Of a DNA stretch of 64,000 bases, positions 1 through 50,669 are shown piece after piece (position 1 is the first letter of the stretch; each line of letters starts with the position of its first letter). The stretch spans positions 806,001-870,000 of the forward strand of contig NZ_CP126741.1 in the NCBI RefSeq assembly GCF_030246905.1. Direction: 5' to 3'. The notes under the pieces are model-generated. The model saw only the letters and a list, made by a program, of their open reading frames with translations. It made no database searches and was not told the origin of the DNA. The position numbers and the translations under genes are program-made. The DNA is from Microbacterium sp. zg-Y818. Lineage in GTDB: Bacteria; Actinomycetota; Actinomycetes; Actinomycetales; Microbacteriaceae.

Positions 1-730
1 CAGCTTCGTGCTGACGATCTTCTCCATCGTCATCGTCATGAACGCCGTCAACTTCATCGACGGTCTCGACGGTCTGGTCGCCGGGGTCGCGCTCATCGCC
101 AACCTGGTCTTCTTCGCGTACGCGTACCTGCTCATGCGCGACATGGGTTCGGCGACCTACTTCACGATGGCGTCGTTCATCGCCGCCGTGCTCATCGGCG
201 CCTGCATCGGGTTCCTCCCGTTCAACTGGAACCCCGCGAAGATGTTCATGGGCGACTCCGGTGCCCTCATGATCGGGCTGCTGATGGCCTGCTCCGCCGT
301 ATCGATCACCGGCTCGCTCGACCCCGCTCTGCTGGGCGACCCCGACCAGTTCGGCCGCTCCCAGCTGCTGGGTGCGTTCATCCCGATCCTCCTCCCGATG
401 GTCGTCGTGCTGCTGCCGCTGCTCGATTTCGGCATGGCGGTGCTGCGGCGCATGCGCGCCGGCAAGTCCCCGTTCTCACCCGACCGCAAGCACCTGCACC
501 ACCGCATGCTCGACATGGGCCACTCCGACCGCGACGCCGTGCTGATCTTCTACGCCTGGACGGCGGTGGTCAGCCTCGCGGTGCTGCTGATGTACATCGG
601 TACGACGGCCGACTGGCCCGGGCAGTATCTGCCGGGCGTCGTCTTCGGTGCCATCGGCGCCATCGCCTGCCTCGTGGTCACCCTCACGCCCGCCCGACGC
701 GCCCGTCCCGCCCTTCAGGAGACCCGATGA
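1..730 (+). CDS. wecA: WecA/Rfe-type undecaprenyl-phosphate GlcNAc-1-phosphate transferase, 5' end missing
   Basis: Integral membrane enzyme that moves a HexNAc-1-phosphate from its UDP-sugar to undecaprenyl phosphate, the first lipid-linked step of wall glycan synthesis. The gene enters from the left edge in frame from base 2, so about 242 C-terminal residues are visible. Family hallmarks are NFIDGLDGLVAG, with the aspartates of the cytoplasmic catalytic loop, FNWNPAKMFMGDSGA, and the HLHHR loop after a hydrophobic stretch. The HLHHR loop and the position upstream of the atp operon, as in Mycobacterium tuberculosis (rfe-Rv1303-atpB), favour WecA over MraY. The stop overlaps the next start in ATGA. 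Confidence 0.9.
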   Translation, partial: SFVLTIFSIVIVMNAVNFIDGLDGLVAGVALIANLVFFAYAYLLMRDMGSATYFTMASFIAAVLIGACIGFLPFNWNPAKMFMGDSGALMIGLLMACSAVSITGSLDPALLGDPDQFGRSQLLGAFIPILLPMVVVLLPLLDFGMAVLRRMRAGKSPFSPDRKHLHHRMLDMGHSDRDAVLIFYAWTAVVSLAVLLMYIGTTADWPGQYLPGVVFGAIGAIACLVVTLTPARRARPALQETR

Positions 731-5524: not shown

Positions 5525-7892
<2,368 letters not shown>

Positions 7893-7893
7893 C

Positions 7894-8154
7894 ATGGCGA
7901 TCTCCGTCAGCCTCGTCTCCGCGGAGTCGGAGGTCTGGTCCGGTGAGGCGAGCCTCGTCGTGGCCAAGACCGTCGAGGGTGAGATCGGCTTCATGAGCGG
8001 TCACGAGCCCGTGCTCGCGATCCTCGCCGAAGGTCAGGTGCGCATCACCACCGAGGACGGCCGCAAGGTCGTCGCCGACGCGCGCGAAGGTTTCCTGTCG
8101 ATGGCGGGGGACGAACTGTCCATCGTGGCGGGACACGCCGCGCTGGTCTCCTGA
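7894..8154 (+). CDS. atpC: F1Fo ATP synthase subunit epsilon, short form
   Basis: 86-residue epsilon subunit made of the N-terminal beta-sandwich domain only (LVSAESEVWSGEA..., GEIGFMSGHEPVLAIL). The C-terminal pair of inhibitory helices found in E. coli epsilon (about 138 residues) is absent, so ATPase inhibition by epsilon is probably weak or different. A short epsilon is seen in other actinobacteria. Last gene of the operon. Confidence 0.95.
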   Translation: MAISVSLVSAESEVWSGEASLVVAKTVEGEIGFMSGHEPVLAILAEGQVRITTEDGRKVVADAREGFLSMAGDELSIVAGHAALVS

Positions 8155-8163
8155 CCGCTGACA

Positions 8164-8210
8164 ACGCACGAATGCACCGGATGAGCCTGCTCTTCGGTGC
8201 ATTCGTGCGT
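8164..8210 (+). terminator. Terminator of the atp operon
   Basis: A perfect 16-bp inverted repeat (8164-8179 with 8195-8210, arm ACGCACGAATGCACCG) around a 15-nt loop starts ten bases after the atpC stop. There is no U tract, as is common for actinobacterial terminators. It separates the operon from yaaA. Confidence 0.8.
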
Positions 8211-8233
8211 TCCGGGGTGGCAGGGCAGGCACG

Positions 8234-8989
8234 ATGCTGATCTTGCTGCCGCCCTCCGAGACGAAGCGCTCAGGTGGCGAGGGCGAGCCCCTGGATGCCA
8301 CCGGGCTCGCCTTGCCGCAGCTCGCGCCGCAGCGGGCCGCCGTGATCGATGCGCTGGTCGCGCTGTCCGGCGACGAGCAGGCCGCGATGAAAGCGCTGAA
8401 GCTCAGCGACCGTCAGCGCGGCGAGGTGGCGGTGAACGCTGCGCTGCGAACGGCTGCCACGATGCCGGCGGTGGACCGCTACACCGGGGTGCTGTTCGAC
8501 GCGCTCGGTGCGGCATCGCTCGATGAGTCCGCCCGCGGCTGGCTCGGCGCCCAGGCGATGATCCACTCGGCACCGTTCGGGCCGGTGTCGGCCCTCGACC
8601 TGATTCCGGCGTACCGGCTCGCCGCCGGTGCGCGCCTGCCCGGCCTCCCGGCGCTGCGGCGGTTCTGGGCAGAGCCGGTCGCGGCGGCGATCGCCGCCGC
8701 GGACCCCGCCTTCGTGCTTGATCTGCGCTCCGAGGCCTACGTCGCGCTGGGCCCGGTGCCGGCCACCGTCGACAGCGTCTACGTGCGGGTGGTCTCCGCG
8801 GGACCCGACGGCACGGTGCGGGCGCTCAACCACTTCAACAAGCGTGCGAAGGGCGAGCTCGTGCGCCTGCTCGCCGCCGACCGCCCCGTCATCAGGTCCT
8901 TGGCGACGCTGCGCGACTGGGCGGAGAGCGTCGGCCTTCAGACGCGCCTCGGCACCCCCGGTGAGATCGAGCTGTTCGCTAGCATGTGA
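8234..8989 (+). CDS. yaaA: YaaA family peroxide-stress protein
   Basis: 251 residues, the usual length for YaaA/DUF328. It opens with MLILLPPSETK and has the conserved LNHFNKRAKGELVR block near residues 200-213, the family's DNA-binding-like helix-hairpin region. In E. coli YaaA lowers free intracellular iron during H2O2 stress. It stands alone behind the atp terminator. Confidence 0.9.
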   Translation: MLILLPPSETKRSGGEGEPLDATGLALPQLAPQRAAVIDALVALSGDEQAAMKALKLSDRQRGEVAVNAALRTAATMPAVDRYTGVLFDALGAASLDESARGWLGAQAMIHSAPFGPVSALDLIPAYRLAAGARLPGLPALRRFWAEPVAAAIAAADPAFVLDLRSEAYVALGPVPATVDSVYVRVVSAGPDGTVRALNHFNKRAKGELVRLLAADRPVIRSLATLRDWAESVGLQTRLGTPGEIELFASM

Positions 8990-9052
8990 TCACGGTGTGC
9001 GCCCCGTCGACGTCGTGCGCACCATCATCGTCTGACTTCGGAGGCCGACACC

Positions 9053-9811
9053 ATGAGTCCTTACGACACCGACAGCGCCGCCGTCGCGGTGCTCGCCCTG
9101 CTCGGGATCGGCATCGGCCTGCTCCTCGCGGCCGGCGGGTACGTGCTGACGTCGCTGTTCATGATGAAGATCTTCGACAAAGCGGGCGTGCAGGGCCGCT
9201 GGCGCGCGTGGGTTCCGATCTACAACACGATGGTCTTCGTCAAGCTCGGTGATCTGAACCCCTGGTGGCTGCTCATCGCCTGGGGTGCCGGGATCCTCCT
9301 CGCCCCTGTGGGCGTCGGGTCGCTCTTCTTCTTCGCCGCCGGTGTCTACACGATCCTCGGCGCGTACCGCGTGGGACTGAAGCTGCAGAAGGAGCCCGTC
9401 TGGGTCGTGCTCTACATCTTCCTGTCGATCGTGTGGCTCGGCATCCTCGCGTTCGACCGCTCACGGTGGAGCCTCGCCGTTCCGCCGGCGCCCTGGGCGA
9501 ATTCGTTCCTGCGTGACACCACACGGTGGTCGGGCATCCCGGTGCAGGCCCCGGCCGTGGGGCAGTACCCCGCTGCCGGCTACGCCGCCTACCCGCCGCC
9601 GCCCGCCACGGGCGCCTACCCGCCCGCCTCGTACCCGCCCGCCGGCTACCAGCAGCCCGTGCCGCCCGCCGGCTATCAGCCGCCTGCTGCGCCCGCGGGC
9701 TATCAGCCGCCCGCGGCCACCCAGCCGCCGCCCTATGAGCCTCCGCAGCCGCCGACGGCCCCGCCTGACACCGAGCCGCCCGCGGCACCCGAGCCGCCCC
9801 GGCAGCCGTGA
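9053..9811 (+). CDS. DUF5684-like membrane protein with Pro/Tyr-rich tail
   Basis: 252 residues in two halves. Residues 10-140 hold about four membrane segments with the DUF5684-like pattern AWVPIYNTMVFVKLGDLNPWW. From about residue 165 the protein is a low-complexity tail of repeated PPAGYQ/PAGYQPP units, then a PPxPP run. Such tails are common on actinobacterial membrane proteins, but no function can be assigned. ATG preceded by CGGAGGCC. The stop overlaps the next start in GTGA. Confidence 0.7.
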   Translation: MSPYDTDSAAVAVLALLGIGIGLLLAAGGYVLTSLFMMKIFDKAGVQGRWRAWVPIYNTMVFVKLGDLNPWWLLIAWGAGILLAPVGVGSLFFFAAGVYTILGAYRVGLKLQKEPVWVVLYIFLSIVWLGILAFDRSRWSLAVPPAPWANSFLRDTTRWSGIPVQAPAVGQYPAAGYAAYPPPPATGAYPPASYPPAGYQQPVPPAGYQPPAAPAGYQPPAATQPPPYEPPQPPTAPPDTEPPAAPEPPRQP

Positions 9812-37877: not shown

Positions 37878-38903
37878 TCAGGCCGGCCGGGCGCCGACGC
37901 GCTCGCGCGAGAACCACGCCGGGGCGACGTAGAGCAGCCGCAGCACCGGAACCCGCGCGGCCCCGGCGGCGATCACGAGGCTCAGCGGGATCACGACCGC
38001 CGTCATCAGGATCGGCATCACGGGACGCAGCGCCGCGAGCGCAGGGGTATCCGCGAACGGCATCAGGATGCTGGTGAACGTCGACAGCAACAGGATGTGC
38101 GTGACGTACACCTGCAGCGTGCGCTGCCCCAGGTGCTCGAGCGGCCTCGACAGCGCCGTGCCGACGAGGTTGCGCGCCAGGCACATGCCGAACGCGACGG
38201 CGAGCAGTCCCACCGGGATCGCAGTGACGGCATCCATCAACCAGCCCGTCGCGCCGCGCAGCACGATGGATGCCGCGAACAGCAGAAGCAGCGCCGCGGT
38301 GGCAGCCCACCGGCGGCGGTGGACGGCGTGGATGATCGACTGTCGAAAGTGCAGCCCGATGAGGAAGAAGACGAAGTACTTCGCGATGCCGTCGTATGCG
38401 ACGTTGTGAAACGTCACGCCGCCGTACATGACGGTCGCCGCGAGGCCGGCGACACCGAGGGCGACCCAGCGGTTCACCCGGCTGTCCAGCGCCTTGGCGG
38501 CGATGAGGAACAGCGCCAGCGCGAACAGGAACCACAGCCCGTTGGACGGGCGCACCACGGAAAGGACGAAGTCCGTCCAGCTGGACTGGTTGAGGTCGAT
38601 CGGCTCCGGCACCACCTGGTAGTAGGCGAAGCGCAGCACCGTCCACACCAGGAACACCCACACCAGCACCGCCAGCCGGGTGCGCCACAGCTGCGGCCAC
38701 GAGCGCCGCACCGCCCCGACGGCGAGCATGCCCGCGACGAGGAAGAACAGGGGCATGCGCAGCAGGGCGAACACCAGGTTCAGCGGCTCCCACCACGGCG
38801 AGGCGAGGCCGGTGGGCACCGTGAACATGCCGGCGTGGAAGAGCACCACCAGGACGATCGCGATGCCGCGGGCGCCGTCGAGCCAGGTCACGCGACCGCT
38901 CAC
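37878..38903 (-). CDS. Acyltransferase-3 family membrane protein
   Basis: 341 residues and about ten membrane helices of the OafA/Acyltransferase_3 family. It starts with the characteristic RVTWLDGARGIAIVLVVLFHAG, whose His is thought to be catalytic, and has the MPLFFLVAGM block. Such proteins transfer acetyl or other acyl groups to surface glycans. Last gene of the ten-gene operon; its start overlaps the GH16 stop in ATGA. Confidence 0.85.
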   Translation of the reverse strand: MSGRVTWLDGARGIAIVLVVLFHAGMFTVPTGLASPWWEPLNLVFALLRMPLFFLVAGMLAVGAVRRSWPQLWRTRLAVLVWVFLVWTVLRFAYYQVVPEPIDLNQSSWTDFVLSVVRPSNGLWFLFALALFLIAAKALDSRVNRWVALGVAGLAATVMYGGVTFHNVAYDGIAKYFVFFLIGLHFRQSIIHAVHRRRWAATAALLLLFAASIVLRGATGWLMDAVTAIPVGLLAVAFGMCLARNLVGTALSRPLEHLGQRTLQVYVTHILLLSTFTSILMPFADTPALAALRPVMPILMTAVVIPLSLVIAAGAARVPVLRLLYVAPAWFSRERVGARPA

Positions 38904-39799
38904 GGGACGATCTCCTCGGTCTGGTCCGCGGGCGTGTATGCCATCCAGTCGATGACCATCCTGTTCACCTCGGGGGTCGTGGCATCCGGGTCACCGGGCC
39001 AATCACCGCCGACGGCGAGGCTGAACAGCACATGCATCGGCTCGTCGAAGACCCAGCGACCGGTCAGTGGCACGTCCCACTCCTCGACGTCCATCACGAC
39101 CTGGTCGTCGATCGCGAGGATGATGCGGCCGGGGCGCTTCTCGACCGTGTAGACGTGGAAGTCGTCGGCGAGAGGAGCCGGCTGGTCGACGCCCTCGTTG
39201 AGGGCCCAGTGCTTCGTCCAGCCGATCGGCCCGTGCAGGTGGTGACGACTGCGGGAGGTGTCGTTGGGCGTCTCGATGATGTCGACCTCGCCGGCGTTGG
39301 GCCAGCCCACCCGGTCGATGTTGTCGCCGAGCAGCCAGAATGCCGGCAGCAGGCCCTGGGCTTCGGGCAGCTTCACCCGCGCCGAGAGCTGCCCGAAGGT
39401 GAACGACCACTTCTTGTGACTCGTGATACGCCCGGAGGTGGGCGTGCTGCCGTCGGCGGGCACGGTCGCCGTGATGACGAGGTTGCCTTCGCCATCCAGT
39501 GCGACGGCGTCTTCGGTGTACTCCTGGATTTCGTTGTTGCCCCACCCGCCGCCGCCGGTCTGGATGTTCCAGAAGGCGGGGTTGGGCTTGCTGCCGGCCG
39601 GCCCGTCGAAGTCGTCGAAGAGCGGTTCGCTGTCGCCGTAGCGCGGCGTGAGGAACGAGAACCCGGTGAACCACCAGAGCCCGCCGACCACCAGGACGAT
39701 CACGAGGATCGCCGAGGGGATGCCGAGGGTGAGCCACCTGCGGCGGCGGGTGCGGCGCGGCGCGGCGCTGGGAGCGGGCGCGGTGTCGGTGACGGTCAC
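38900..39799 (-). CDS. Membrane-anchored GH16 glycoside hydrolase
   Basis: 299 residues. An Arg-rich N-terminus and one membrane helix (about residues 22-45) place a GH16 domain outside the cell. The catalytic motif is AGEVDIIETPN, matching the family's ExDxxE with both glutamates present. WNIQTGGGGWGNNEIQEYT and HKKWSFTFGQLSARVKLP match beta-1,3-glucanase/laminarinase-like members. In this operon it more likely trims, releases or transglycosylates the operon's own polymer than digests food. Overlaps both neighbours by 4 nt. Confidence 0.87.
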   Translation of the reverse strand: MTVTDTAPAPSAAPRRTRRRRWLTLGIPSAILVIVLVVGGLWWFTGFSFLTPRYGDSEPLFDDFDGPAGSKPNPAFWNIQTGGGGWGNNEIQEYTEDAVALDGEGNLVITATVPADGSTPTSGRITSHKKWSFTFGQLSARVKLPEAQGLLPAFWLLGDNIDRVGWPNAGEVDIIETPNDTSRSRHHLHGPIGWTKHWALNEGVDQPAPLADDFHVYTVEKRPGRIILAIDDQVVMDVEEWDVPLTGRWVFDEPMHVLFSLAVGGDWPGDPDATTPEVNRMVIDWMAYTPADQTEEIVP

Positions 39800-41040
39800 G
39801 GCAGCAGTCCTTTCGGGTCACGGCGCAGCAACTCGGTCGCGGCGGTGATGGTGTCGCGGTCGTACAGCGAGCCGTCGAAGCTGACAGATATGTGCAGGCG
39901 CCGTCTGAGCACGGCCGTGAGGGCGGTGATGCCGTTGCGCCCTGCAGGATCGACCGATACCCGAACGACGCCTTCGCCCGTCCAGGGGAGAGGCTCGAGC
40001 GCGCGGAGAAAGCCCATGTCGCTGACGATCGGCTTCGCAGCCGCCGGGACCTGAGAGGGGCCGGACCGCTGCCAGCCGCGGGTGAGCAACCCGGCGGCGA
40101 GGGCCGCGAGGGGTCTTCCGACGTGCAGGTCGCGGGTGAAGCGTGCTCCGGCGGCATCCAGCCCTGGCGTGAGGTCGACCGGATGCCCGACGACGAAGTT
40201 CGCCAGTGTCGACCGCCCCGACGGCAGGTAGCGGCGCAGGTCCACCAGCAGCGAGCCCTCGTCCATGACCGGCACGCCCACCCGGTCAAGCGCCTCCCGG
40301 AGCGCGAACATCATCGCCAGGGTCGGGGGGACCCTGCCCCGGCTCCAGGCCGCCAGCTCCCGGTAGGTCTGGGCCTCCATCGTGCCGGTGACGAGGTCCA
40401 GCGACCTGCGCTGCGCATCGACGGTCGGTCCGGCGTACGGGGTGCGGCGCTGTGCCATGCGGTCACGGACGACCGCTCCCGCCCGGCCGGGGTGCCGCAG
40501 GAACGTCGCGGCCAGTGCCGAAGGCAGCGGGTCGACGTCCGGGCCCGAAGTGAAGACGCCCGGTGCTTTCCGTCCGGTGAGCGCTCCCGCTGTCAGCATG
40601 ACGCTCAGAAAGCCGTCGCCCAGGCGGTGGTCGATGCACAGCGATGCGCGGTCCTCGCCGAGGAAGACGGTGAAGGGCAGGTCGGCGGCGGCGGCATCGC
40701 GCAGCTTCGGCAAGCCCGCGTCTCCGGTGAGCTCCACGGGCAACGGACGCACGATCCGCTCGGCCTGGGCGTCGAGGGCGTCGGGGTCGTACCGCCAGCG
40801 AGGGCCGTCGAAGGTCCTTCCGGCGCGGGCGGCGGCACCAAGCCGCAGCAGGTCGCGGACGGCGGCGACGACCGTCTCGCGTTCGGGCACATCGAGGGGG
40901 GCGAGTTCGACGCTGATGCGCACCCCGTCCGACAGCAGGTCCCTGCCCTGCACCCGCCCCGATGTCTCGACCCGACGTGCCGCGCGGCGCGGCGTGCGCT
41001 CCGGCACCGCGCCGGCCTCCTCGTCACGTGCGACGACCAT
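39796..41040 (-). CDS. Condensation-fold acyltransferase-like protein (HxxxDG)
   Basis: 414 residues from ATG 41040; the open frame to 41112 overlaps the upstream gene. Soluble, no signal peptide. CIDHRLGDGFL near residue 145 fits the HxxxDG catalytic motif of CoA-dependent acyltransferases, NRPS condensation domains and PapA/WS-DGAT enzymes. Later LLVDLRRYLPSGRSTLANFVVG resembles the second structural block of that fold. No carrier-protein gene is nearby. I infer a cytosolic acylation of a sugar or lipid-linked intermediate, but the substrate is unknown. Coupled to GH16 by a 4-nt overlap. Confidence 0.6.
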   Translation of the reverse strand: MVVARDEEAGAVPERTPRRAARRVETSGRVQGRDLLSDGVRISVELAPLDVPERETVVAAVRDLLRLGAAARAGRTFDGPRWRYDPDALDAQAERIVRPLPVELTGDAGLPKLRDAAAADLPFTVFLGEDRASLCIDHRLGDGFLSVMLTAGALTGRKAPGVFTSGPDVDPLPSALAATFLRHPGRAGAVVRDRMAQRRTPYAGPTVDAQRRSLDLVTGTMEAQTYRELAAWSRGRVPPTLAMMFALREALDRVGVPVMDEGSLLVDLRRYLPSGRSTLANFVVGHPVDLTPGLDAAGARFTRDLHVGRPLAALAAGLLTRGWQRSGPSQVPAAAKPIVSDMGFLRALEPLPWTGEGVVRVSVDPAGRNGITALTAVLRRRLHISVSFDGSLYDRDTITAATELLRRDPKGLLP

Positions 41041-41042
41041 TC

Positions 41043-42026
41043 TCAGACCATCTCCAGGGCCGTCTGCAGATCGGGGGCGAACTGCAGCGGCAGTTCGAGG
41101 TCCGCCAGCCACGTCGCGGCGTAGCTCGTGAGCTTGCCGTTGGCGTTGTCGATCGCGATGACCCGCCGGCCCATCTGCAGCCCGATCAGCATGGCGTGGA
41201 GGCGATCGGTGACGATCGTCTCACCGGGGGCGAGGAGGGCAACGCCCGTGGCCAGGCGCGTGGCGGCATCGGCGAACCAGCGGTCGGTGGTGCGGTTCAT
41301 CCCGCGGGTCACGGCACCTTCGATGACGGTGCGGCGCGCGCGGCGGCGGAGGCGATCGGCGAAGGTCATCGCCGGCCAGTCCACGGCTTCGGCCCCGGTG
41401 CCCGGCGGCAGAGCGCTCTCATCGTCTCGGCGCAGCAGCTGGACCACCGGGCGCGTCGGGGCGGCGGCGTGAAGTCGCCCCAGCATGTGCACGCTGTCCG
41501 GCGCCAGCGTCACATCGGCGACGAGGTCGCGCACCGCCGCGAGCGAGGCGGTGTCGCGCACCGCCAGGCGCAGCTGCGGCCGCGATGCCATGCGGCTGGC
41601 GAACTGCGTGCGGTCCGATGCCGAGGCGAAGTGCACCGACTGCGGCTCCTGGATCAGCAGCGTCTCGTCGCGCAGTCGCTCGGCCAGGCGGTAGCGGTGC
41701 TCGCTGTGCTGGGGGTAGAGCCCGCCGAAGTTGCCGCCGCCTTGGATGACCACGGTCGTGTGCGAGTCGTAGACCTTCGGCGAGATCGTGCGCCAGGAGT
41801 AGGTCGCCTCCACCTGGATGCCGGCACGGCGCCAGAACTCCGCCTGACCGAGCGCGATCACCGAGTCGCCGATGTTCTCGTAGTCGGGAAAGTCGGTCAG
41901 CACCAGCGACTCCACGCCGCGGTGCAGCTGCGTGAGCGCGTCGAAGGAGCGACGCTGCATCTCGTCGATGAAGTGCCCGGCGGTGTGCGGGCGGGGTTCA
42001 CGGGTGTTCTCGGTGGGCAGGGTCAC
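41043..42026 (-). CDS. Polysaccharide pyruvyl transferase
   Basis: 327 residues of the PS_pyruv_trans family, which adds ketal-linked pyruvate from phosphoenolpyruvate to a sugar. Recognised by LTDFPDYENIGDSVIALGQ, the glycine-rich VVIQGGGNFGGLYPQHSEHR, and the C-terminal VTDRLHAMLIGLQMGRRVIA and IDNANGKLTS. GTG 42026 overlaps the flippase stop (GTGA) and has GGAGG 7 nt upstream. Pyruvylation makes a polymer acidic and can create binding sites for SLH-type proteins. Confidence 0.9.
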   Translation of the reverse strand: MTLPTENTREPRPHTAGHFIDEMQRRSFDALTQLHRGVESLVLTDFPDYENIGDSVIALGQAEFWRRAGIQVEATYSWRTISPKVYDSHTTVVIQGGGNFGGLYPQHSEHRYRLAERLRDETLLIQEPQSVHFASASDRTQFASRMASRPQLRLAVRDTASLAAVRDLVADVTLAPDSVHMLGRLHAAAPTRPVVQLLRRDDESALPPGTGAEAVDWPAMTFADRLRRRARRTVIEGAVTRGMNRTTDRWFADAATRLATGVALLAPGETIVTDRLHAMLIGLQMGRRVIAIDNANGKLTSYAATWLADLELPLQFAPDLQTALEMV

Positions 42027-43591
42027 GGGGAGTCCTCCAGGACGTGGCCGGTGCGGGACCGGATGGGAAGAGCCGACCTCAGCCGGGCGCGCGAGGTCTT
42101 GTCGAAAGCGAGGAAGTAGTAGAGCGCGAGCGCTGCCGCGACCCAGACGCCCGCGAGGGCCACGATGAGCGGGAGCGGGGGGCCGGTCAGGCTCGCCGCG
42201 TACAGCAGAGCCGCCAGGGGGGCGACGGTCGCGAACGGCAGCACCAGGCAGCGCACGGCGAAGTCCCGCAGCGGAATGTGCAGGCGCCGCAGTGCGATCG
42301 CGATGTACACGGGTTCGAGGAACAGGATCGGAAGGGCGAGCCCGAGGGCGATACCGGGGAGCCCGAGGGATCCGCCCAGCGCTGTGGCCAGGAGCGTCCC
42401 CGAGACGGCCCAGATCGTGTGCAGCACGGCATAGCCGCGCAGAGACCCCTGCGCGGTGAGGATGGGAACCGCCAGCAGGTGATTGTTGTTCGCGAACATC
42501 GACAGCACCAGGATCTGCGCGACCAGCGCGGCGCCTGGCCCGGCATCGCCGAGCCAGACGTTCATGATCTGCGGCATGAAGATCACGATCGGCACGAGCA
42601 CGAGGGTCATCAGCATGTTCGCCAGGCTCGTGCCGCGCAGGTACATCTGCCCGATCGGGGCCCCTTCGGCACCGCCGTGGCGCATCGAGGCGGTCGGGAG
42701 CAGGGCGACGGCGAGTGAGCCGGTCACCTCCTTCACCAGCAGGTAGATGCGCTGGCCGGCGGCATACACCGCGGTGAAGCCGATGGGGAGGAGGAGCGCG
42801 GTCAGGATGCCGCCCACCTGCATGATCACCACGCTGGCGATCCCGAGCACCATGAGCTGCGAGCTCACACGGAAGAGCTCCCGGAAGACGTCCCAGCGGA
42901 AGTCGGCGAACCGCGCGGTGACCTCCGGAGCCCGGCGGCGCCGCACCACGTAGGTGGCGATGCCGAAGCCCAGGATGCCGAGCACGTCGACGACCGCGAC
43001 CGCCACGATGCCGAGGTCGGCCCAGCACACGATCACGGTGAAGACGACGCGGAACGCGGCGAGCCCGATGAGCAGGTAGTTCACTTCGGCGAGGCGGCCG
43101 ATGCCCGCGAGGATCTGCCGGTTCGCGGAGAACACCAACAGGAGGAAGACATTGCCGATGCCCAGGATCGCCAGCGCCCACGCCGTGGACCCGAGCTCGT
43201 CGCTGAAGTCCGCGTTCGGCACCGTCAGGGCGAAGGCCACCGCGGTCGCGGTCGCCAGGACGAGGGCGGCGGCGATGTAGAACACGTTGCTGGCCGAGGC
43301 GACGCTGCGCATGCGGGCGACGTCGCCCGAGGGCCGCGCGACGCCGATGAAGCGCGTCGTGGCATCCCCGATCCCCAGATCCTGCTGGAACAGCGCACCG
43401 AGGGCGACGGTGAGCATGTACAGCCCGTACGACTCGGCACCGAAAGCCCCCAGCACCACGGGGAGCAACACCACGTACGCGATCATCGAGGAAAAGCGCG
43501 CGAGGTAGGTCGTGATGACCGCCCCGGTGATGCCTCCCCTCGGCGCGGCCGACGCCCTGTGACGCCGCGTCGTCTCGGTTGCGCTGCCCAT
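42023..43591 (-). CDS. Polysaccharide flippase, Wzx/MATE-like (first)
   Basis: 522 residues and 12-14 predicted membrane helices of the MOP/Wzx superfamily (VITTYLARFSSMIAYVVLLPVVLGAFGAESYGLYML at the N-terminus). It would move an undecaprenyl-linked repeat unit across the membrane. One base separates it from the upstream membrane protein gene. The operon contains a second, unrelated-looking flippase. Confidence 0.82.
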   Translation of the reverse strand: MGSATETTRRHRASAAPRGGITGAVITTYLARFSSMIAYVVLLPVVLGAFGAESYGLYMLTVALGALFQQDLGIGDATTRFIGVARPSGDVARMRSVASASNVFYIAAALVLATATAVAFALTVPNADFSDELGSTAWALAILGIGNVFLLLVFSANRQILAGIGRLAEVNYLLIGLAAFRVVFTVIVCWADLGIVAVAVVDVLGILGFGIATYVVRRRRAPEVTARFADFRWDVFRELFRVSSQLMVLGIASVVIMQVGGILTALLLPIGFTAVYAAGQRIYLLVKEVTGSLAVALLPTASMRHGGAEGAPIGQMYLRGTSLANMLMTLVLVPIVIFMPQIMNVWLGDAGPGAALVAQILVLSMFANNNHLLAVPILTAQGSLRGYAVLHTIWAVSGTLLATALGGSLGLPGIALGLALPILFLEPVYIAIALRRLHIPLRDFAVRCLVLPFATVAPLAALLYAASLTGPPLPLIVALAGVWVAAALALYYFLAFDKTSRARLRSALPIRSRTGHVLEDSP

Positions 43592-43592
43592 C

Positions 43593-45365
43593 TCAGCCCT
43601 GCGGGGTGACGCCGAGGTTCAGGCGGTACACGAGCGTCTCGTCGGACTCGTGGGCGAGCTCCCAGCGGGGGTCGTCCTCGAGGATGTTCTCGAACCGTCC
43701 CAGCGCGCCGTCGGGGAGGGTGCCGTAGTAGGTGCTGTAATCGCGCATCTGCTGCGTGATGACCACGAGGGCCGGTCGCTGCTCCCAGACGAGGCTGTCG
43801 GTGAGGCGGGTGACGCGGCGCGGGTCGGCGAACTGCTCGTTCTCCCACCCTGGCCACGACGTCAGCCACATGTCGATGCCGGAGTCGAACTGCTGGTTGG
43901 CCTGCACGAAGTCCACGTACTCCGCGACGAGGCGACCGGGGGCGCCCGGTGCGACGCCGATGGTGAGGGTGGCGGGATCCTCGTTCTGCAGGATGTCGGT
44001 GGTCAGGCGCACCGATTCGGGGGTGACCAGGTTCGCGAACCACCCGCCGTAGTAGGCCTGCATCGACAGCAGGCCGGCGATCGACGCGATGACGGCGGCG
44101 CCCGCCTGCGCGGTGCGGCGGGCGCGGGCGGCCTCTCCGCGCAGCATGCGGGTCAGGCCCGGCGCGAGGATCAGCATGCAGCCGGGGATGGAATACAGGA
44201 ACACCCGGAAGAGTGCTTCGCCGCCGTAGCCCTGGGCTACCAGGATCAGACCGGGGGAGAAGGCGACGACCGCCGGCACGAGCGTGTCGCGCCACTGGTC
44301 GCGGCGGCGCACCAGGCGCACCACGGTGACGATGCCGGCCGACACCCACAGCAGCAGGGTCACCGCTCGCGCGGACCATGAGCTGACCACCTGTCCCAGG
44401 CTCGGGTTTCCCAGGGTCTCGTTGCGTGCCGAGGGGGTCAGGATGTTGCTGAGGAAGTCGAAGTTCAGCAGGCGCCCGAACTGGCTGAGCACGTTCAGGT
44501 GCAGCAGCATGTAGCCGATCGCGATCGCCGCGAAGACGAGGAAGATGTACTTCGGCTTCACCCGCCCGAGCAGGGTCAGCACGAACAACGCGGCGAGCAG
44601 CCAGTACGGCGTCAGCTGGTGGGTGACCACGATGGCCGCGAAGATCGGCACAGCCACCCAGGCCGCGGCCTTCGTCGTGCCCGATGCGAGCAGGAGGGCC
44701 ATCACCACGATGGCGAGGGCGAAGCCGATCGCCTGCGGGGAGAGGTAATCCTGCGCGACCCAGTTGGCGGTGTGGGCGCCGAACGCCGCGACCAGGGCCG
44801 TGGGCGTGCCCATGCCGTAGGTGCGGGCGAGGAAGAACACCGCGGCGGTCACCGCCAGCTGGGAGCCGACGGTGAACCACTGCGCGACGGCGATCGTCTC
44901 GACGCCGGTGACGGTGTTCAGCCACGCGATGAAGGAGAAGGCCCCTGGCCAGTTGTGGTAGATGTCCACGTCCACGTCGACCACGCCGAAACGCTGGATG
45001 TAGTCCGTGGGGCCGAAGTGCTTGTACGTCCACGAATAGAGGGGGGCATCGGTGGAGACGGCGGTGGGCAGCCGCATCATGAGGACGGTCGACACCAGCG
45101 CGGCGCCGGCCGTGCGGTGAGTGCGCAGCGCGATGGCGAGGCAGAACGCGACCGTTGCCAGGACGATCGACACCGGGAAGAGCGGTCCAGAGGCGGCGAG
45201 CAGCCCGAAGAGGTTCCACGGTGCGTCGCGAAGGCCGGGCAGCGCCACCGCCCAGCAGGTGGCGGCGGCGACCAGGACGATCGCAGGGACCAGCCACGGG
45301 CGAAAAGCGCTCGACGGCTCGACGGGCGGTGCCGACGCGTGCGTGCGGGGTGCGGTGAGGGTCAT
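43593..45365 (-). CDS. Polytopic membrane protein of the polysaccharide operon, polymerase-like
   Basis: 590 residues. About 12 membrane helices cover residues 22-440, with a loop containing YNHWPGAF-like aromatic residues after helix 3 (DVDIYHNWPGAFSFIAW). A soluble C-terminal part of about 150 residues follows and probably faces outside. No Wzy or GT-C signature could be named with confidence. Between a GT2 gene and a flippase gene, polymerase or lipid-dependent glycosyltransferase are the best guesses. ATG 45365 has GGAGG upstream and overlaps the GT2 stop by 4 nt. Confidence 0.6.
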   Translation of the reverse strand: MTLTAPRTHASAPPVEPSSAFRPWLVPAIVLVAAATCWAVALPGLRDAPWNLFGLLAASGPLFPVSIVLATVAFCLAIALRTHRTAGAALVSTVLMMRLPTAVSTDAPLYSWTYKHFGPTDYIQRFGVVDVDVDIYHNWPGAFSFIAWLNTVTGVETIAVAQWFTVGSQLAVTAAVFFLARTYGMGTPTALVAAFGAHTANWVAQDYLSPQAIGFALAIVVMALLLASGTTKAAAWVAVPIFAAIVVTHQLTPYWLLAALFVLTLLGRVKPKYIFLVFAAIAIGYMLLHLNVLSQFGRLLNFDFLSNILTPSARNETLGNPSLGQVVSSWSARAVTLLLWVSAGIVTVVRLVRRRDQWRDTLVPAVVAFSPGLILVAQGYGGEALFRVFLYSIPGCMLILAPGLTRMLRGEAARARRTAQAGAAVIASIAGLLSMQAYYGGWFANLVTPESVRLTTDILQNEDPATLTIGVAPGAPGRLVAEYVDFVQANQQFDSGIDMWLTSWPGWENEQFADPRRVTRLTDSLVWEQRPALVVITQQMRDYSTYYGTLPDGALGRFENILEDDPRWELAHESDETLVYRLNLGVTPQG

Positions 45366-46966
45366 GCCGTCCTCCTGATGCCGAAGGTGACTGCGGCGCC
45401 CAGGCAGGTGGCCCCCGCCAGGATGAACAGCCACGCCACGGGGTTCCATAGCTGCGCGTACACGACGGCCGTGGTCAGCAGCAGCATCGTCGAGACCCCG
45501 ATGGCCGGGACGACGATGGGCGCGAAGTGGGGTGGGAGCACCACCCAGGCGCGCACCAGCGCGCCGGGACCGAGCAGGATGAACACCGCGACGAACAGCA
45601 GCGACAGCCCGGTCGGCAGCGGAAGCAGCGCCAGCAGACCGCTGAACCCGCCCACTGCCGCCAGCCCCGACCAGCAGCGACGTTCCATCGCCGGCCCGCG
45701 CGAGGCGGGACCCGCGAGGGTGCCGGCGTCACGCTGGGTGCGACGCTCCGCGAAGTAGGCGGCAGGGCCGCCGACGATGCTCCGCAGCTCCACGCGGCCT
45801 ACCTTCTTCGCCGCGACCGAGAGGGTCGACGAGGCGGGGGAGTCGTCCACGGTCGACATGGGCTTGTGCAGCAGACGCGCCAGCGCGCGGGGCGAGCGGG
45901 CCACCGCAGCTCCCAGCATGCGCGGGTCGAGTGCGACCGTGGTCGCCCAGGCGCCGAATCCGCGGCCGTAGCCCACGGCCTGGGCGGTCAGGGCGGCCAG
46001 GTCGTCCCGGTGGCGGTGCCACACCAGTGCCGCGGGCTCCACCGCGATCGCCTGGCCGTCATAGAGAACGCGCAGGAACATGTCGAGGTCCTCACCGCCC
46101 TGAGTGCGGGTGCCGGCACCCAGGGCGGTGTCGAAGCCGCCGAGCTCCAGCATGTGCGCCCGACGGACGGCGAAGTTCGCGCCCGTGCCGAACTCGCCCA
46201 CGCAGAAGGGGAACATGGGCAGATCCGACGGTGGGTCGTCCAGGCGGAACACTCGCGCGGCGGTGAGCTTGGACCAGCTGACGCGGGCGTCGAAGTACGC
46301 CTGCACCTCGTTGCGCAGCTCGCCGGTCGGCACCACGCCCGTCACACAGGCGACGTCGGGACCGCGTGAGAATCCGGCGGCGATCGCCCACAGCCACTGC
46401 GTGTCGACGCTGACGTCGTCGTCGGTGAACGCGACGATCGCCGACTGCGCGGCGCGGAGCCCGGCGTTGCGGGCATGGGAGAGCCCGGCGGCATCCTCGC
46501 GCACGTAGCGGAAGTCCGGGAACTGCGACGCCAGCAGATCGCGGGTCTCGCCGGTCGCGGGCGCGTTGTCGACCACGACCACTTCGTACGAGGGGTACTC
46601 CAGCGCCCGGATGGCCTCGAGGGACTCCCGCAGCATGTCGGCGCGGTCACGGGTGCAGACGACCACCGTGATGGGGGTCGGCTCCGGGCGGGATGCCGCA
46701 GGGACCGAGGGCAGTGCAGCGATCGCCTCCTGCAGGGCGTGCGGGTCGAGCGTGCCCTCCGCGACGGGGAGGGTGACGTAGCCGCGCACCGATCCGCGGT
46801 CGCGCACCAGCAGGCGGGCCCGGTCGAACGATCCGCCGGACTCGAGTACGACGGCGTCCGGCGACGCGGCGACGTCGTCGGCCTCGACGAGGCCGACCCA
46901 GATCGCGTCTCGTCGGTCGACGTCGCCGCGCAGGGGCATGGCGAGGGGGAGAGTCAGTGCCGTCAT
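45362..46966 (-). CDS. GT2 glycosyltransferase with N-terminal extra domain and C-terminal membrane helices
   Basis: 534 residues. The first 95 or so residues form an unrecognised domain. A GT-A glycosyltransferase follows (ITVVVCTRDRADMLRESLEAI, VVVVDNAP, GLSHARNAGLRAA, AFTDDDVSVD with the metal-binding aspartates, GGEDLDMFLRVL). Three C-terminal helices (about 430-530) anchor it to the membrane. Nucleotide-sugar and acceptor unknown. ATGA overlap with the second flippase. Confidence 0.85.
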   Translation of the reverse strand: MTALTLPLAMPLRGDVDRRDAIWVGLVEADDVAASPDAVVLESGGSFDRARLLVRDRGSVRGYVTLPVAEGTLDPHALQEAIAALPSVPAASRPEPTPITVVVCTRDRADMLRESLEAIRALEYPSYEVVVVDNAPATGETRDLLASQFPDFRYVREDAAGLSHARNAGLRAAQSAIVAFTDDDVSVDTQWLWAIAAGFSRGPDVACVTGVVPTGELRNEVQAYFDARVSWSKLTAARVFRLDDPPSDLPMFPFCVGEFGTGANFAVRRAHMLELGGFDTALGAGTRTQGGEDLDMFLRVLYDGQAIAVEPAALVWHRHRDDLAALTAQAVGYGRGFGAWATTVALDPRMLGAAVARSPRALARLLHKPMSTVDDSPASSTLSVAAKKVGRVELRSIVGGPAAYFAERRTQRDAGTLAGPASRGPAMERRCWSGLAAVGGFSGLLALLPLPTGLSLLFVAVFILLGPGALVRAWVVLPPHFAPIVVPAIGVSTMLLLTTAVVYAQLWNPVAWLFILAGATCLGAAVTFGIRRTA

Positions 46967-48297
46967 GCGGCAACACCTTTCGGGTCGAGGGCGTATGCGG
47001 GCGCGAGGCCGCGCACACGACGGAGTCCGACCGCGCCCACGGCTGCCAGGGCGCACGCGCCGCAGACCATGGCCAGCGCTGCGCCGAGGGCCCCGTACGA
47101 GGGGACCAGCAGCAGCACGACGGTGAACAGGATCAAGACGTAGAGCAGGTTGCTCCACAGCACCGGCCGCACCCGGTGCCGCGCGCGGGAGAGCGCGGAC
47201 CAGATGTCGTAGCCGGGACGAATGAGGCTCGCCAGCGCCAGGGCGCCGACAACGGCCATGCCGTACAGCGGTGGGTACGCCTTGCCGGCGATGAGGAACA
47301 GCAGAGGTGTGGCGACGGTCGCGCACACTCCCAACGCGCCCACCACGAAGAAGACCGAGCGCGAGTACGACCGGGCGAGCACCGCGCTGGGGTCGAAGTC
47401 GGCCGCGGCGCTCTTGGCCAGCGCCGTCGCGACGGCGACGCCCACGAGGTCCAGCGCGACGCTGAACTGATAGGCGATGGCGAACACCGCGCCCTCTTCG
47501 GGGGAGGCCAGGGCCGTGACGACGAACGACAGCGACAGTCCCGCGCAAAGGACCACTCCGACAGCCATGGCGTTCTGCGCGGTGAAGAGGCCGAACGCCC
47601 GGGCGACCCCGGCGTTCCAGGTGTGCGTGCTCGGCCGCCGCGCCTGCTCCCGTCGCAGGGCGCGCGGCACCAGCACGAGGGCGCCGACGGCGACCGCGCA
47701 GACAGCGGGCACGATCGTGGCCGTCACGAGCGGATGCGCCGGGCCGACCGCCCCGAAGGCGAGCACCGCCAACAGGGCGAGCTTCAGCAGGTTCGCCGAG
47801 CCATTGAGCAGGAGGGTGCTGCGGGCGTCGGCGGCGCCGGCCAGCGCCTGGGTCAGCACGTTGAACAGAGCCCACACCACGGTGCACAGGGTGACCACGG
47901 CCACCGTGACCACGACCGGCGGATCCGGACGCAGCACCATGGCCACCAGCCCTCCCGCCACGAGTCCGGTCGCCGCGCCGAGCCCCGCCGTCACGGCATA
48001 GGCGCGCCCCAGCAGCGACCAGGCTGCCGGGCCGCCCAGCGGGAGCATGACGACCAGCGCGCTTCCCGGGCCGTTGGACGCCAGCGCGGCCGCGGCCATG
48101 ATGACCGCCAGTGCCGAGGCCTCCAGGCCCAGCTGGGCCTGCGGGATCCACAGTGCCGCCAGCATCCAGAAGACGAACCCGGACACCGAGGTCACGGCGT
48201 ACCCCGCCGACAGCCAGAGCGAGTCGCGCGTGATGCGTCGACCCACCGAGGTGCCGGCGCCGGGGGCGTCGGGGTGCCGGCGCCGTACCCCCGTCAC
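46963..48297 (-). CDS. Second flippase-like membrane protein
   Basis: 444 residues from GTG 48297, which overlaps the upstream GT2 stop in GTGA. About 12 helices with the MOP-type pattern (RDSLWLSAGYAVTSVSGFVFWMLAALWIP, LIRPGYDIWSALSRARHRVRPVLWSN). It shares topology but little obvious sequence with the other flippase of the operon. Two flippases could serve two lipid-linked substrates, or one could act in another role. Confidence 0.78.
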   Translation of the reverse strand: MTGVRRRHPDAPGAGTSVGRRITRDSLWLSAGYAVTSVSGFVFWMLAALWIPQAQLGLEASALAVIMAAAALASNGPGSALVVMLPLGGPAAWSLLGRAYAVTAGLGAATGLVAGGLVAMVLRPDPPVVVTVAVVTLCTVVWALFNVLTQALAGAADARSTLLLNGSANLLKLALLAVLAFGAVGPAHPLVTATIVPAVCAVAVGALVLVPRALRREQARRPSTHTWNAGVARAFGLFTAQNAMAVGVVLCAGLSLSFVVTALASPEEGAVFAIAYQFSVALDLVGVAVATALAKSAAADFDPSAVLARSYSRSVFFVVGALGVCATVATPLLFLIAGKAYPPLYGMAVVGALALASLIRPGYDIWSALSRARHRVRPVLWSNLLYVLILFTVVLLLVPSYGALGAALAMVCGACALAAVGAVGLRRVRGLAPAYALDPKGVAA

Positions 48298-49238
48298 GCG
48301 GGCGTCCGCCCTGTCAGCGAGCGGCGCGGGCTGCCGGCCCGAACGGGGGCGACGCTCCCGCGCAGGTAACCCGCGCCGGCGAGAAGCAGTGAGAGCACGA
48401 TGGCGGCGGCTGCAGGCACGCCCTGCGGCCCGCGGCGCAGTTCCCGCCAGAGGGCGGCGGGGAGCACGCGCGAGGCATAGGCGGACTCGGCCGAGAGCGC
48501 GTCCTGGCGCCCGACGGTACGCGCGATCCCCGCTTTGGAGATCCCTTCGCACCAGCTGCGGTGGGCGACGTATGCCATTCGCGTCCGGTCGGCGCTGACG
48601 TGATGGCGCACGCGCGCGGACGGCTCGTACCGCACGATGTGGGCCGGGTCGACCTGGCGCAGCTTGATGCACACCTCGGTCTCCTCGCAGCCGATGGGCA
48701 GCTTGCCCACGCGGCCGGTGTCGGTGTTGAAGCCGCCGACGGCGAGCAGCGGGTCGCGGCGGAAGGCCATCGAGCAGCCCATGACGTTGCGCACCGGGCC
48801 GGGTCGTGTGGGAAGTCCGCGATAGCTGCACCCGACGATCCAGAGCAGCTCCTCGGGGAGCACCGCCGGAGCGTCGCCCGGCCACAGCGGCACCGCGCTG
48901 CCGCCGACGGCGACGACCGACGGCTCTGCGAATCCGTCGACGAGGGTGCGCAGCCATCCGGGCTCGGCGACCGCATCGTCGTCGAGGAACGCGACGATGT
49001 CGCCGCGGGCCACCTGCAGGGCGGTGTTGCGCGCGGCGGAGAGTCCCTGCGCGCCGGCGTTGGCCAGCACGTGCGACTCAGGCCACCGGGCCTGGGCGCG
49101 ACGCAGCAGCTCGTCGTTGTGATCGATGACGAGGATCGTCTCGTCTGCGATCGCCTGGTCCGTTACCGAGGCCATGGCCAAAGCCAGCTGATCCCAGCGA
49201 TCGAGCGTGTACGCGCAGATCACCACACTGACCGACAT
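48294..49238 (-). CDS. GT2 family glycosyltransferase
   Basis: 314 residues. VSVVICAYTLDRWDQLALAMASV, GLSAARNTALQVARGDIVAFLDDDAVAEPGWL (DDD metal site) and the acceptor-side block MGCSMAFRRDPLLAVGGF, then IGCEETEVCIKLRQ. A short hydrophobic segment near the C-terminus (about 275-295) may attach it to the membrane. The ATG shares one base with the stop of the upstream GT2. Confidence 0.87.
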   Translation of the reverse strand: MSVSVVICAYTLDRWDQLALAMASVTDQAIADETILVIDHNDELLRRAQARWPESHVLANAGAQGLSAARNTALQVARGDIVAFLDDDAVAEPGWLRTLVDGFAEPSVVAVGGSAVPLWPGDAPAVLPEELLWIVGCSYRGLPTRPGPVRNVMGCSMAFRRDPLLAVGGFNTDTGRVGKLPIGCEETEVCIKLRQVDPAHIVRYEPSARVRHHVSADRTRMAYVAHRSWCEGISKAGIARTVGRQDALSAESAYASRVLPAALWRELRRGPQGVPAAAAIVLSLLLAGAGYLRGSVAPVRAGSPRRSLTGRTPA

Positions 49239-50056
49239 CACCGGCCGATCGACTCCGCGCGCTCGGCGGGCGCCGTGGGGGCGGGCGAAGCCGGGGAGCC
49301 GGCTGTGCGGGCACCGCGCTTGCGACCCCAGCGCCTCATCCGCTCGTCGAGCACGGTGCGCAGCACCCGCAGCCCATCGGTGACGGCGTTGAGGTTGCTC
49401 TCGCCGTGGATGCGGGGAAGCTCGACGCTCGGAACCTCGACCACGTGCAGACGGTTCTCGGCCATGCGGCAGGTCAGCAGGGTCTCGATCTCGAAGCCGT
49501 CGCCCCAGACCATCTGGCCCTCGGCACCCGGGATGTGCGCTGCGGGAAGCTCCAAGGCGGGGAGGATGCGGCGCCAGAAGGCGTTGTAGCCGTAGCAGAG
49601 GTCGGAGTGGCGGGTGCCGAGCAGGATGTTGGTCAGCAGGTTGAGGCCCCGGTTGCCGAGGTTGCGGTGGAACGTGATGTCCTCGCTCGCGCCGCCGGCC
49701 ATGTAACGACTTCCCTTGCTGACGTCGGCACCCTGCACGAGCGCGTCGACGAAGCGCGGGATCTCGTCGGGGTCGGCGGAGCCGTCGGCGTCGAACATGA
49801 CGATGATGTCCCCGGTCGCGTGCTCGAAACCGCACACCAGCGCGTTGCCCTTGCCCTTGCGGGTCTGGGTGATGACGTCGACGCCCGGTCGCACGCGGCG
49901 GGCGACGTCGGCGGTGCCGTCCACCGAGTGACCGTCCACGACGATGATCTCGTGCACGTCGGGAAGAAGGGGCAGCACGATCTCGAGGTTCTTGGCCTCG
50001 TTCCGGGCGGGGACGATGATCGATATGCGGGGTGCGGAGTGCACGGGGATGGTCAC
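49238..50056 (-). CDS. GT2 glycosyltransferase, polyprenol-phosphate mannose/glucose synthase-like
   Basis: 272 residues, first gene of the operon. RISIIVPARNEAKNLEIVLP, IIVVDGHSVDGTADVA, GKGNALVCGFEHATGDIIVMFDADGSADPDE and GSRYMAGGA follow the DPM1/DPG synthase pattern, but no C-terminal membrane domain is present. It may make a polyprenyl-phosphate sugar for the membrane transferase of this operon. GTG start with AAGGTGA 6 nt upstream. The C-terminal 25 residues are Ala/Pro-rich. Confidence 0.85.
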   Translation of the reverse strand: MTIPVHSAPRISIIVPARNEAKNLEIVLPLLPDVHEIIVVDGHSVDGTADVARRVRPGVDVITQTRKGKGNALVCGFEHATGDIIVMFDADGSADPDEIPRFVDALVQGADVSKGSRYMAGGASEDITFHRNLGNRGLNLLTNILLGTRHSDLCYGYNAFWRRILPALELPAAHIPGAEGQMVWGDGFEIETLLTCRMAENRLHVVEVPSVELPRIHGESNLNAVTDGLRVLRTVLDERMRRWGRKRGARTAGSPASPAPTAPAERAESIGR

Positions 50057-50258: not shown

Positions 50259-50291
50259 CCGACGGGGCCGGTTACCAATTGGCCGAAACGT

Positions 50292-50309
50292 GTCCCCTCT
50301 TCGGAGGAC
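50292..50309. promoter_or_regulatory. 18-bp dyad operator, copy 1
   Basis: GTCCCCTCTTCGGAGGAC, a GTCC-N10-GGAC dyad. 15 of 18 bases match the other two copies. Starts exactly 42 bp before copy 2. Confidence 0.75.
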
Positions 50310-50333
50310 ATCGGCGGAATTCCGCGGTTTTTC

Positions 50334-50351
50334 GTCCACCGAATGGGGGAC
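50334..50351. promoter_or_regulatory. 18-bp dyad operator, copy 2
   Basis: GTCCACCGAATGGGGGAC, the exact reverse complement of copy 3. Starts 42 bp after copy 1 and 42 bp before copy 3. Confidence 0.8.
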
Positions 50352-50375
50352 AGCGGGGCGTCGTCGGCGCGTGAC

Positions 50376-50393
50376 GTCCCCCATTCGGTGGAC
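50376..50393. promoter_or_regulatory. 18-bp dyad operator, copy 3
   Basis: GTCCCCCATTCGGTGGAC. With copy 2 it forms a perfect 18-bp inverted repeat around 24 nt, which could also be read as a hairpin. The matching copy 1 at the same spacing argues for protein-binding sites. Confidence 0.8.
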
Positions 50394-50498
50394 AAACGAC
50401 ATTTGCGGTCCACAATGGAGTGAGCGGCTGTCTGGGAGGACAGGGAACCCCGGATGACCGAGCCCGGGGAGTCCCGTCGGCCGAGGGAGGGACGAGAC

Positions 50499-50669
50499 AT
50501 GAGAAAGACCCCGAAGAAGACCGAACCGCAGTCGAACATGTGCGCGTGCGGGCACGTTCGCGAGGCGCACGAGCACTACCGCCCGGGCACGGAATGCTCC
50601 CTGTGCGACGTACGCGCCTGCTCTGCGTTCACCGCCGTCACGGTCACCGAGTACACGCGCACACGCTGA
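50499..50669 (+). CDS. Small Cys/His-rich protein, zinc-ribbon-like
   Basis: 56 residues from ATG 50499 with GAGGGAGGGA upstream; an in-frame ATG at 50454 would add 15 residues. The pattern C-x-C-G-H, H-E-H-Y-R-P-G-T, C-x2-C, C looks like a compact metal-binding motif that occurs in small actinobacterial proteins or as a tail on larger ones. No function known. It is divergent from the polysaccharide operon and shares its 440-nt upstream region. Confidence 0.65.
   Translation: MRKTPKKTEPQSNMCACGHVREAHEHYRPGTECSLCDVRACSAFTAVTVTEYTRTR

Follow-up and report, generated by a model that had tools for sequence, protein, structure and literature searches.

How can a bacterium start a glycan on its lipid carrier, if the gene cluster in charge appears to hold no initiating enzyme of the usual kind? 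This question is raised by a ten-gene minus-strand operon of Microbacterium sp. zg-Y818, which spans positions 37878-50056 of a 64,000-nucleotide (nt) stretch of DNA (the window) that is part of a 3.23-Mb single-contig genome. An earlier note on this DNA had reported neither an initiating phosphoglycosyl transferase (PGT) nor a chain-length regulator, and the gene combination could not be matched to a described pathway. The gene set is conserved in some soil actinobacteria and appears to make, decorate, export and trim a sugar chain of the cell surface, and the chain is probably started on the lipid in the archaeal style rather than in the usual bacterial way. Here, we infer with moderate confidence that the locus is one module making a modified surface glycan, assembled on a polyprenyl monophosphate. 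The ten genes are:

A, 49238..50056, minus strand: glycosyltransferase family 2 (GT2) enzyme of the polyprenyl-phosphate sugar synthase group, resembling AglJ and dolichol monophosphate mannose synthase (DPM); proposed initiator
B, 48294..49241, minus strand: AglG-like GT2 enzyme; proposed to add the second sugar, perhaps a uronic acid
C, 46963..48297, minus strand: flippase-like membrane protein, core member
D, 45362..46966, minus strand: GT2 enzyme with a C-terminal membrane domain of three segments; proposed to add the third sugar
E, 43593..45365, minus strand: membrane enzyme of the glycosyltransferase C (GT-C) fold; proposed polymerase or oligosaccharide transferase
F, 42023..43591, minus strand: putative second flippase (Wzx-like), accessory
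G, 41043..42026, minus strand: polysaccharide pyruvyl transferase
H, 39796..41040, minus strand: protein of the condensation/PapA/BAHD fold; proposed cytoplasmic acyltransferase
I, 38900..39799, minus strand: membrane-anchored glycoside hydrolase family 16 (GH16) enzyme, beta-1,3-glucanase-like
J, 37878..38903, minus strand: acyltransferase-3 membrane protein, accessory

The coordinates confirm the tight coupling described earlier, since the nine junctions consist of seven 4-nt overlaps (ATGA/GTGA), a 1-nt gap between E and F and a 2-nt gap between G and H. Pfam likewise agrees with the naming of three GT2 enzymes (A, B and D), a pyruvyl transferase (G), a GH16 enzyme (I) and an acyltransferase-3 protein (J). 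For C, E and H no Pfam or NCBIfam family was found above its cut-off.

Proposed chain initiation and transfer machinery

Gene A matches PF00535 with 98.5 bits in the Pfam scan. Among solved structures, 5mlz, a dolichol monophosphate mannose synthase, is nearest to it (79 bits), and the GT2 domain together with the DAD motif aligned to this solved member places A in the DPM group. Among the NCBIfam profiles A is closest to AglJ (TIGR04182, 108 bits vs. a curated cut-off of 325) and B to AglG (NF041394, 217 bits vs. 440), where scores below the cut-off indicate kinship only. The same assignment is obtained in the actinobacterial metagenome-assembled genome (MAG) locus L024 (113 bits for A, 165 bits for B) and in the mycobacterial locus L025 (153 and 227 bits); elsewhere in the genome of the window, the next best place for the AglG profile scores 52.8 bits. 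The third enzyme, D, matches PF00535 with 81 bits and has MftF as its best NCBIfam relative (130 bits, cut-off 280). Its C-terminal membrane domain occurs as a separate open reading frame (ORF) of 118-123 amino acids in L005 (3294-3650) and L024 (9486-9857), the latter without a Pfam match.

The three PGTs of the PF02397 (Bac_transf) type encoded in the genome gave no tblastn match in the window or in 29 further loci, the PF00953 type not having been searched in these other loci; as a control, each of these queries detects the others at their own sites in the genome, with 40-47 percent identity. Also the Wzz protein of the genome (PF02706, 32 bits, cut-off 25.5) has no homologue in the window or the 29 loci. 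A missing classical initiator need not mean that there is no initiator, because A belongs to a group of polyprenyl-phosphate glycosyltransferases. Since no Bac_transf PGT was found in these loci, A is the best candidate for an initiator within the locus, and it looks, alone among the genes of the locus, able to load a carrier.

For E, a GT-C fold is predicted. The best solved matches are the oligosaccharyltransferase (OST) subunits STT3/AglB, overlapping with other GT-C enzymes, and by sequence no match in the PDB was found. GT-C enzyme is therefore a better name than the former "polymerase-like". E is probably not a Wzy homologue, since it has no family or PDB sequence match and the folds listed for it are other GT-C enzymes; VIA-align merely re-ranks Foldseek hits, so that the missing Wzy among these folds is no proof in itself. 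The hallmark motif of OSTs is WWDxG. A true OST was rejected, since WWD is present in 1 of 83 homologues of E, and there as WWDRL. Among the matches listed, the relatives of E are annotated as "hypothetical protein", apart from two rows of RgtA/B/C-like glycosyltransferases; the two large protein searches covered the best 8000 candidates by shared words.

The two flippases named previously are putative members of the MOP type and rest on different grounds. F has NF041503 (WZX_like) as its best NCBIfam match, at 40 bits far below the cut-off of 300, and is detected in the full Microbacterium loci only. C displays 11 hydrophobic segments, and its profile, from which mycobacterial sequences were left out, scores 55-68 bits in 6 of 6 loci against the flippase part of a mycobacterial ORF in which flippase and GH16 are joined. 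This mycobacterial part in turn weakly resembles PF01943 (18.7 bits, cut-off 28.2).

Among the modification enzymes, G exceeds the cut-off of PF04230 (53.6 bits vs. 25.3), and its nearest solved structure is Pyruvyl transferase 1 (5ax7, 76 bits). J matches PF01757 with 102 bits. I matches PF00722 (56 bits) and has beta-1,3-glucanases as nearest solved structures (178 bits). Its anchoring, as described before, is borne out by one N-terminal hydrophobic segment, and all 21 rows compared show the active-site motif GExDxxE, including a row from the duplicate locus L038. GH16 is also the family of the succinoglycan glycanase ExoK. H has no match in the PDB by sequence and was placed by structure comparison: it shares the condensation/PapA/BAHD fold and the HxxxD pair with PapA, wax-ester synthase and BAHD acyltransferases, unlike which it has no Pfam match and sits in a glycan operon. 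Of the HxxxDG motif reported earlier, H137 and D141 are invariant in 25 sequences, and the final G is variable. Based on the structural model, H is proposed to be an acyltransferase; the fold itself leaves acyl transfer unsettled, because the top structural row is titled dehydratase.

Taken together, these assignments suggest the following order of steps. A would put the first sugar on the polyprenyl monophosphate carrier, and B and D would lengthen the chain. In the cytoplasm, it would be decorated with a pyruvate ketal by G and an acyl group by H, and the lipid-linked chain would be flipped by C (and F). E may then polymerise the chain or pass it to an outer acceptor, and the anchored I may trim or transglycosylate it at the membrane exit. 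A further acyl group could come from J, or from a hexapeptide acyltransferase in other strains. Most simply, A, B, D and E would serve one lipid-linked chain, because no more than a single flippase was detected in each of the reduced loci L024, L046 and L047. The computation shows the gene content, gene order, co-occurrence, predicted folds and conserved motifs, whereas functions, substrates, carrier, linkages and product are predictions. The pyruvylated, acylated and extracellularly trimmed polymer of the earlier note is retained as such a prediction. A more far-reaching proposal is that an archaeal-like assembly on monophosphate is widespread in actinobacteria, that a GT-C enzyme of OST architecture transfers the glycan en bloc to an outer acceptor and that a flippase-coupled GH16 transglycosylase attaches or remodels it; this we regard as speculative and unlikely in its entirety.

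If the proposed pathway is true, it would represent a bacterial route of glycan assembly started without a PGT, in which a GT-C enzyme replaces Wzy. The family of E, with mostly "hypothetical protein" relatives, would gain a proposed function, with a sequence of steps that can be put to the test, and the natural flippase-GH16 fusion offers a direct way to test whether GH16 takes part in export.

Conservation of the module

The order A-I is kept in 12 distinct loci, namely the window, five Microbacterium records (L019-L023) and six further loci of the same genus (L039-L042, L044 and L045), which rules out a random cluster. Here, L038 (G174, a contig of M. pullorum) is a duplicate of L019 with 100 percent identity over 18,001 nt and was counted once; for the other pairs of full loci, the best segment never exceeds 94 percent identity. 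By E, the nearest named loci belong to Microbacterium species. One of the full loci, L044 (G278:C31, P0017), lies on a contig of 25,962 nt whose record carries the name Planococcus sp. APC 4015, probably in error.

The genes for H, GH16 and the pyruvyl transferase occur together in 12 of 12 full loci, and instead of being scattered in relatives, the order A-I recurs in 11 loci besides the window. This supports the single pathway suggested before. Furthermore, E is present in 9 of 149 genomes of the genus and H in 8 (the best 12 of 20 candidates scored), all of them carriers of E; the ninth E carrier is G268 (L043). The chance of this overlap is 1.8e-12, a value valid only for independent genomes, and these are related. 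Because of this, the genome G292, where the module lies away from proS, helps the case for co-occurrence. At the ends the loci vary: 5 of the 12 have an orthologue of J that adjoins the GH16 gene or sits one gene beyond, in L022 with reversed orientation, and a hexapeptide-type gene, absent from the present operon, follows GH16 in 9 of 12.

Beyond the full loci, a core of A, B, C, D, E and GH16 recurs in L024 and, rearranged, in six mycobacterial loci. The reduced loci L024, L046 and L047 contain A, B, C, D, E, H and I, with G after I in L046, and in each of them a single flippase and a single GT-C enzyme were detected. The mycobacterial loci (L025-L030) hold A, an extra GT2, B, D, C and I in one ORF, and E. 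In L025, the one of the six scanned with Pfam, the extra gene is indeed a GT2, and the joined ORF (7438-9549) matches GH16 with 43 bits and Polysacc_synt with 18.7 bits, below the cut-off. The family profiles were built from the compared loci, and of the mycobacterial genes, A, B, D, E and I had been found earlier by single-sequence tblastn. Downstream of E, L025 carries C-methyltransferase, PIG-L deacetylase and epimerase genes. In a sample of 150 genomes of the family, E-like proteins are present in 10, several of them distant, and an order-wide search using the mycobacterial E gave 8 of 248.

The full operon adjoins proS in 7 of the 8 carrier genomes of the genus; in G292, proS is on a different contig. 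In the five carriers that were measured, proS and ispG lie 13.6 to 17.0 kb from each other, vs. 0.8 to 8.3 kb in 12 genomes without E, and none of the operon genes was detected at this site in these 12, which were hand-picked from 140 genomes without E and are mostly close proS relatives. Since the empty sites are short and free of operon genes, the module would most simply have been gained or lost as a block.

Known systems and rival explanations

The gene combination as such has a precedent, because its modification set is that of succinoglycan, which the earlier note had overlooked. Two accounts describe the addition of pyruvyl (by ExoV), acetyl (by ExoZ) and succinyl groups (by ExoH) ahead of Wzx-dependent export and polymerisation by ExoQ (PMC6801904), as well as the glycanase ExoK (PMC5748678). 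Like the exo cluster of Sinorhizobium, the locus combines a pyruvyl transferase, acyltransferases, a glycanase, a flippase and a polymerase candidate. A convergent functional copy of this set with an ordinary mechanism would account for the shared modification set, yet we consider it very improbable, since the window and the 29 loci lack a match to the PF02397-type PGTs or Wzz, a GT-C enzyme of OST-like architecture takes the place of ExoQ, and a PapA-fold protein is present. The unusual part is the probable machinery for initiation and transfer, which had gone unrecognised.

With the haloarchaeal Agl/AepG systems of Haloferax and Haloarcula, the locus shares the pair of AglJ-like and AglG-like GT2 enzymes and a GT-C enzyme of AglB-like fold. 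According to one report, the DPM-like AepG makes DolP-GlcA (dolichol phosphate-glucuronic acid) for an exopolysaccharide, probably as a donor, so that in an archaeon a DPM-like enzyme can serve exopolysaccharide formation (PMC9943897). Unlike these systems, the host is bacterial, A and B score far under the cut-offs, E lacks the OST motif, and GH16, pyruvyl and acyl transferases are added. The likeness of A to AglJ and of B to AglG, the flippase and the closeness of the E model to STT3/AglB would also fit protein glycosylation resembling haloarchaeal N-glycosylation with E as the OST. This appears improbable, however, given the nearly absent WWD and missing Pfam match of E and the intact motif of a glucanase-type GH16, which suggests a polymer as substrate.

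Pairs of an undecaprenyl phosphate (Und-P) sugar synthase and a GT-C enzyme are known from ArnC-ArnT, which the locus resembles in its DPM-type GT2 and its GT-C enzyme and from which it differs by the extra GT2 enzymes B and D and by reduced loci with a single detected flippase. Both differences speak for an oligosaccharide and against a donor of one sugar. A rival explanation is an ordinary diphosphate-linked, Wzx-dependent assembly initiated in trans by a PGT or WecA-like enzyme, with the Und-P-sugar of A feeding a GT-C side branch and the second flippase serving the donor. Such an arrangement is somewhat doubtful. The genome does encode PGTs and two PF00953 proteins that could act in trans, but two of the PGTs, at 270 and at 454 kb, are close to Wzz proteins of their own clusters, E has neither a Pfam nor an NCBIfam match, and L024, L046 and L047 keep A with one flippase and one GT-C enzyme, so that these loci have no additional polymerase. 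The enzymes that could act in trans weigh against A as the initiator, and several loci complicate the picture: L043 (G268), with a divergent cluster of A, B, D, D and E, lacks H, I and the small protein described below; in L045, 2 kb with an acyltransferase-3 gene and further ORFs separate H from I; L048, L049 and L052 match D and E only, apart from a 40-bit GH16 match in L048; and L050, L051, L053 and L054 have no clear I. We regard the locus as a variant form of glycan assembly on a lipid and keep it outside the Wzx/Wzy, OST, AglJ and AglG families because their defining features, when tested, were either not found or left the assignment unsettled. In the literature, titles and openings of abstracts revealed nothing on this locus, subscription journals being mostly outside the scope of this search.

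Two observations concern other genes of the same genome. A PF00953 (WecA/MraY-type) gene spans the left end of the window (1-730, plus strand; match G000:C1:805819-806304), and another cluster (L086, G000:C1:444000-463900) encodes a separate set of pyruvyl transferase, PGT and Wzz protein.

The divergent small protein and its intergenic region

Two further elements lie upstream of A:

Small Cys/His-rich protein of 56 amino acids, 50499..50669, plus strand: divergent gene, proposed part of the module
Near-palindrome TGTCCTCCGAAGAGGGGACA, 50291..50310, minus strand: between the divergent genes, possible operator

The small-protein gene sits between A and proS and had been missed so far. It has no Pfam match and displays the motif CxCGHx4HxHYR...CxxC...C, of which C15, C17, H19, H24, H26, C33, C36 and C41 are invariant in 11 aligned sequences, including those of L024, L046 and L047. 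When searched for with a permissive tblastn, it had no convincing counterpart at the 12 empty sites (best E 0.41), nor did the mycobacterial loci contain one. Within the genus, the protein is present in 8 of 149 genomes (the best 44 of 61 candidates scored), exactly the carriers of H, and is found in G292 too, though the module lies elsewhere there. It would thus be a dedicated partner of the module, perhaps regulatory, and may bind zinc.

The same intergenic region contains a 21-nt inverted repeat with one mismatch at 50331-50396. As a general operator this repeat was rejected, since of the 10 intergenic regions compared, a set that leaves L021 and L023 outside, only those of the window, L038 and L042 showed its long arms. 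Because these arms are limited to the closest relatives, 50291-50310 alone is proposed as an operator; 8 of the 10 regions contain it with no more than one mismatch, and there are 6 mismatches in L022 and 7 in L045.

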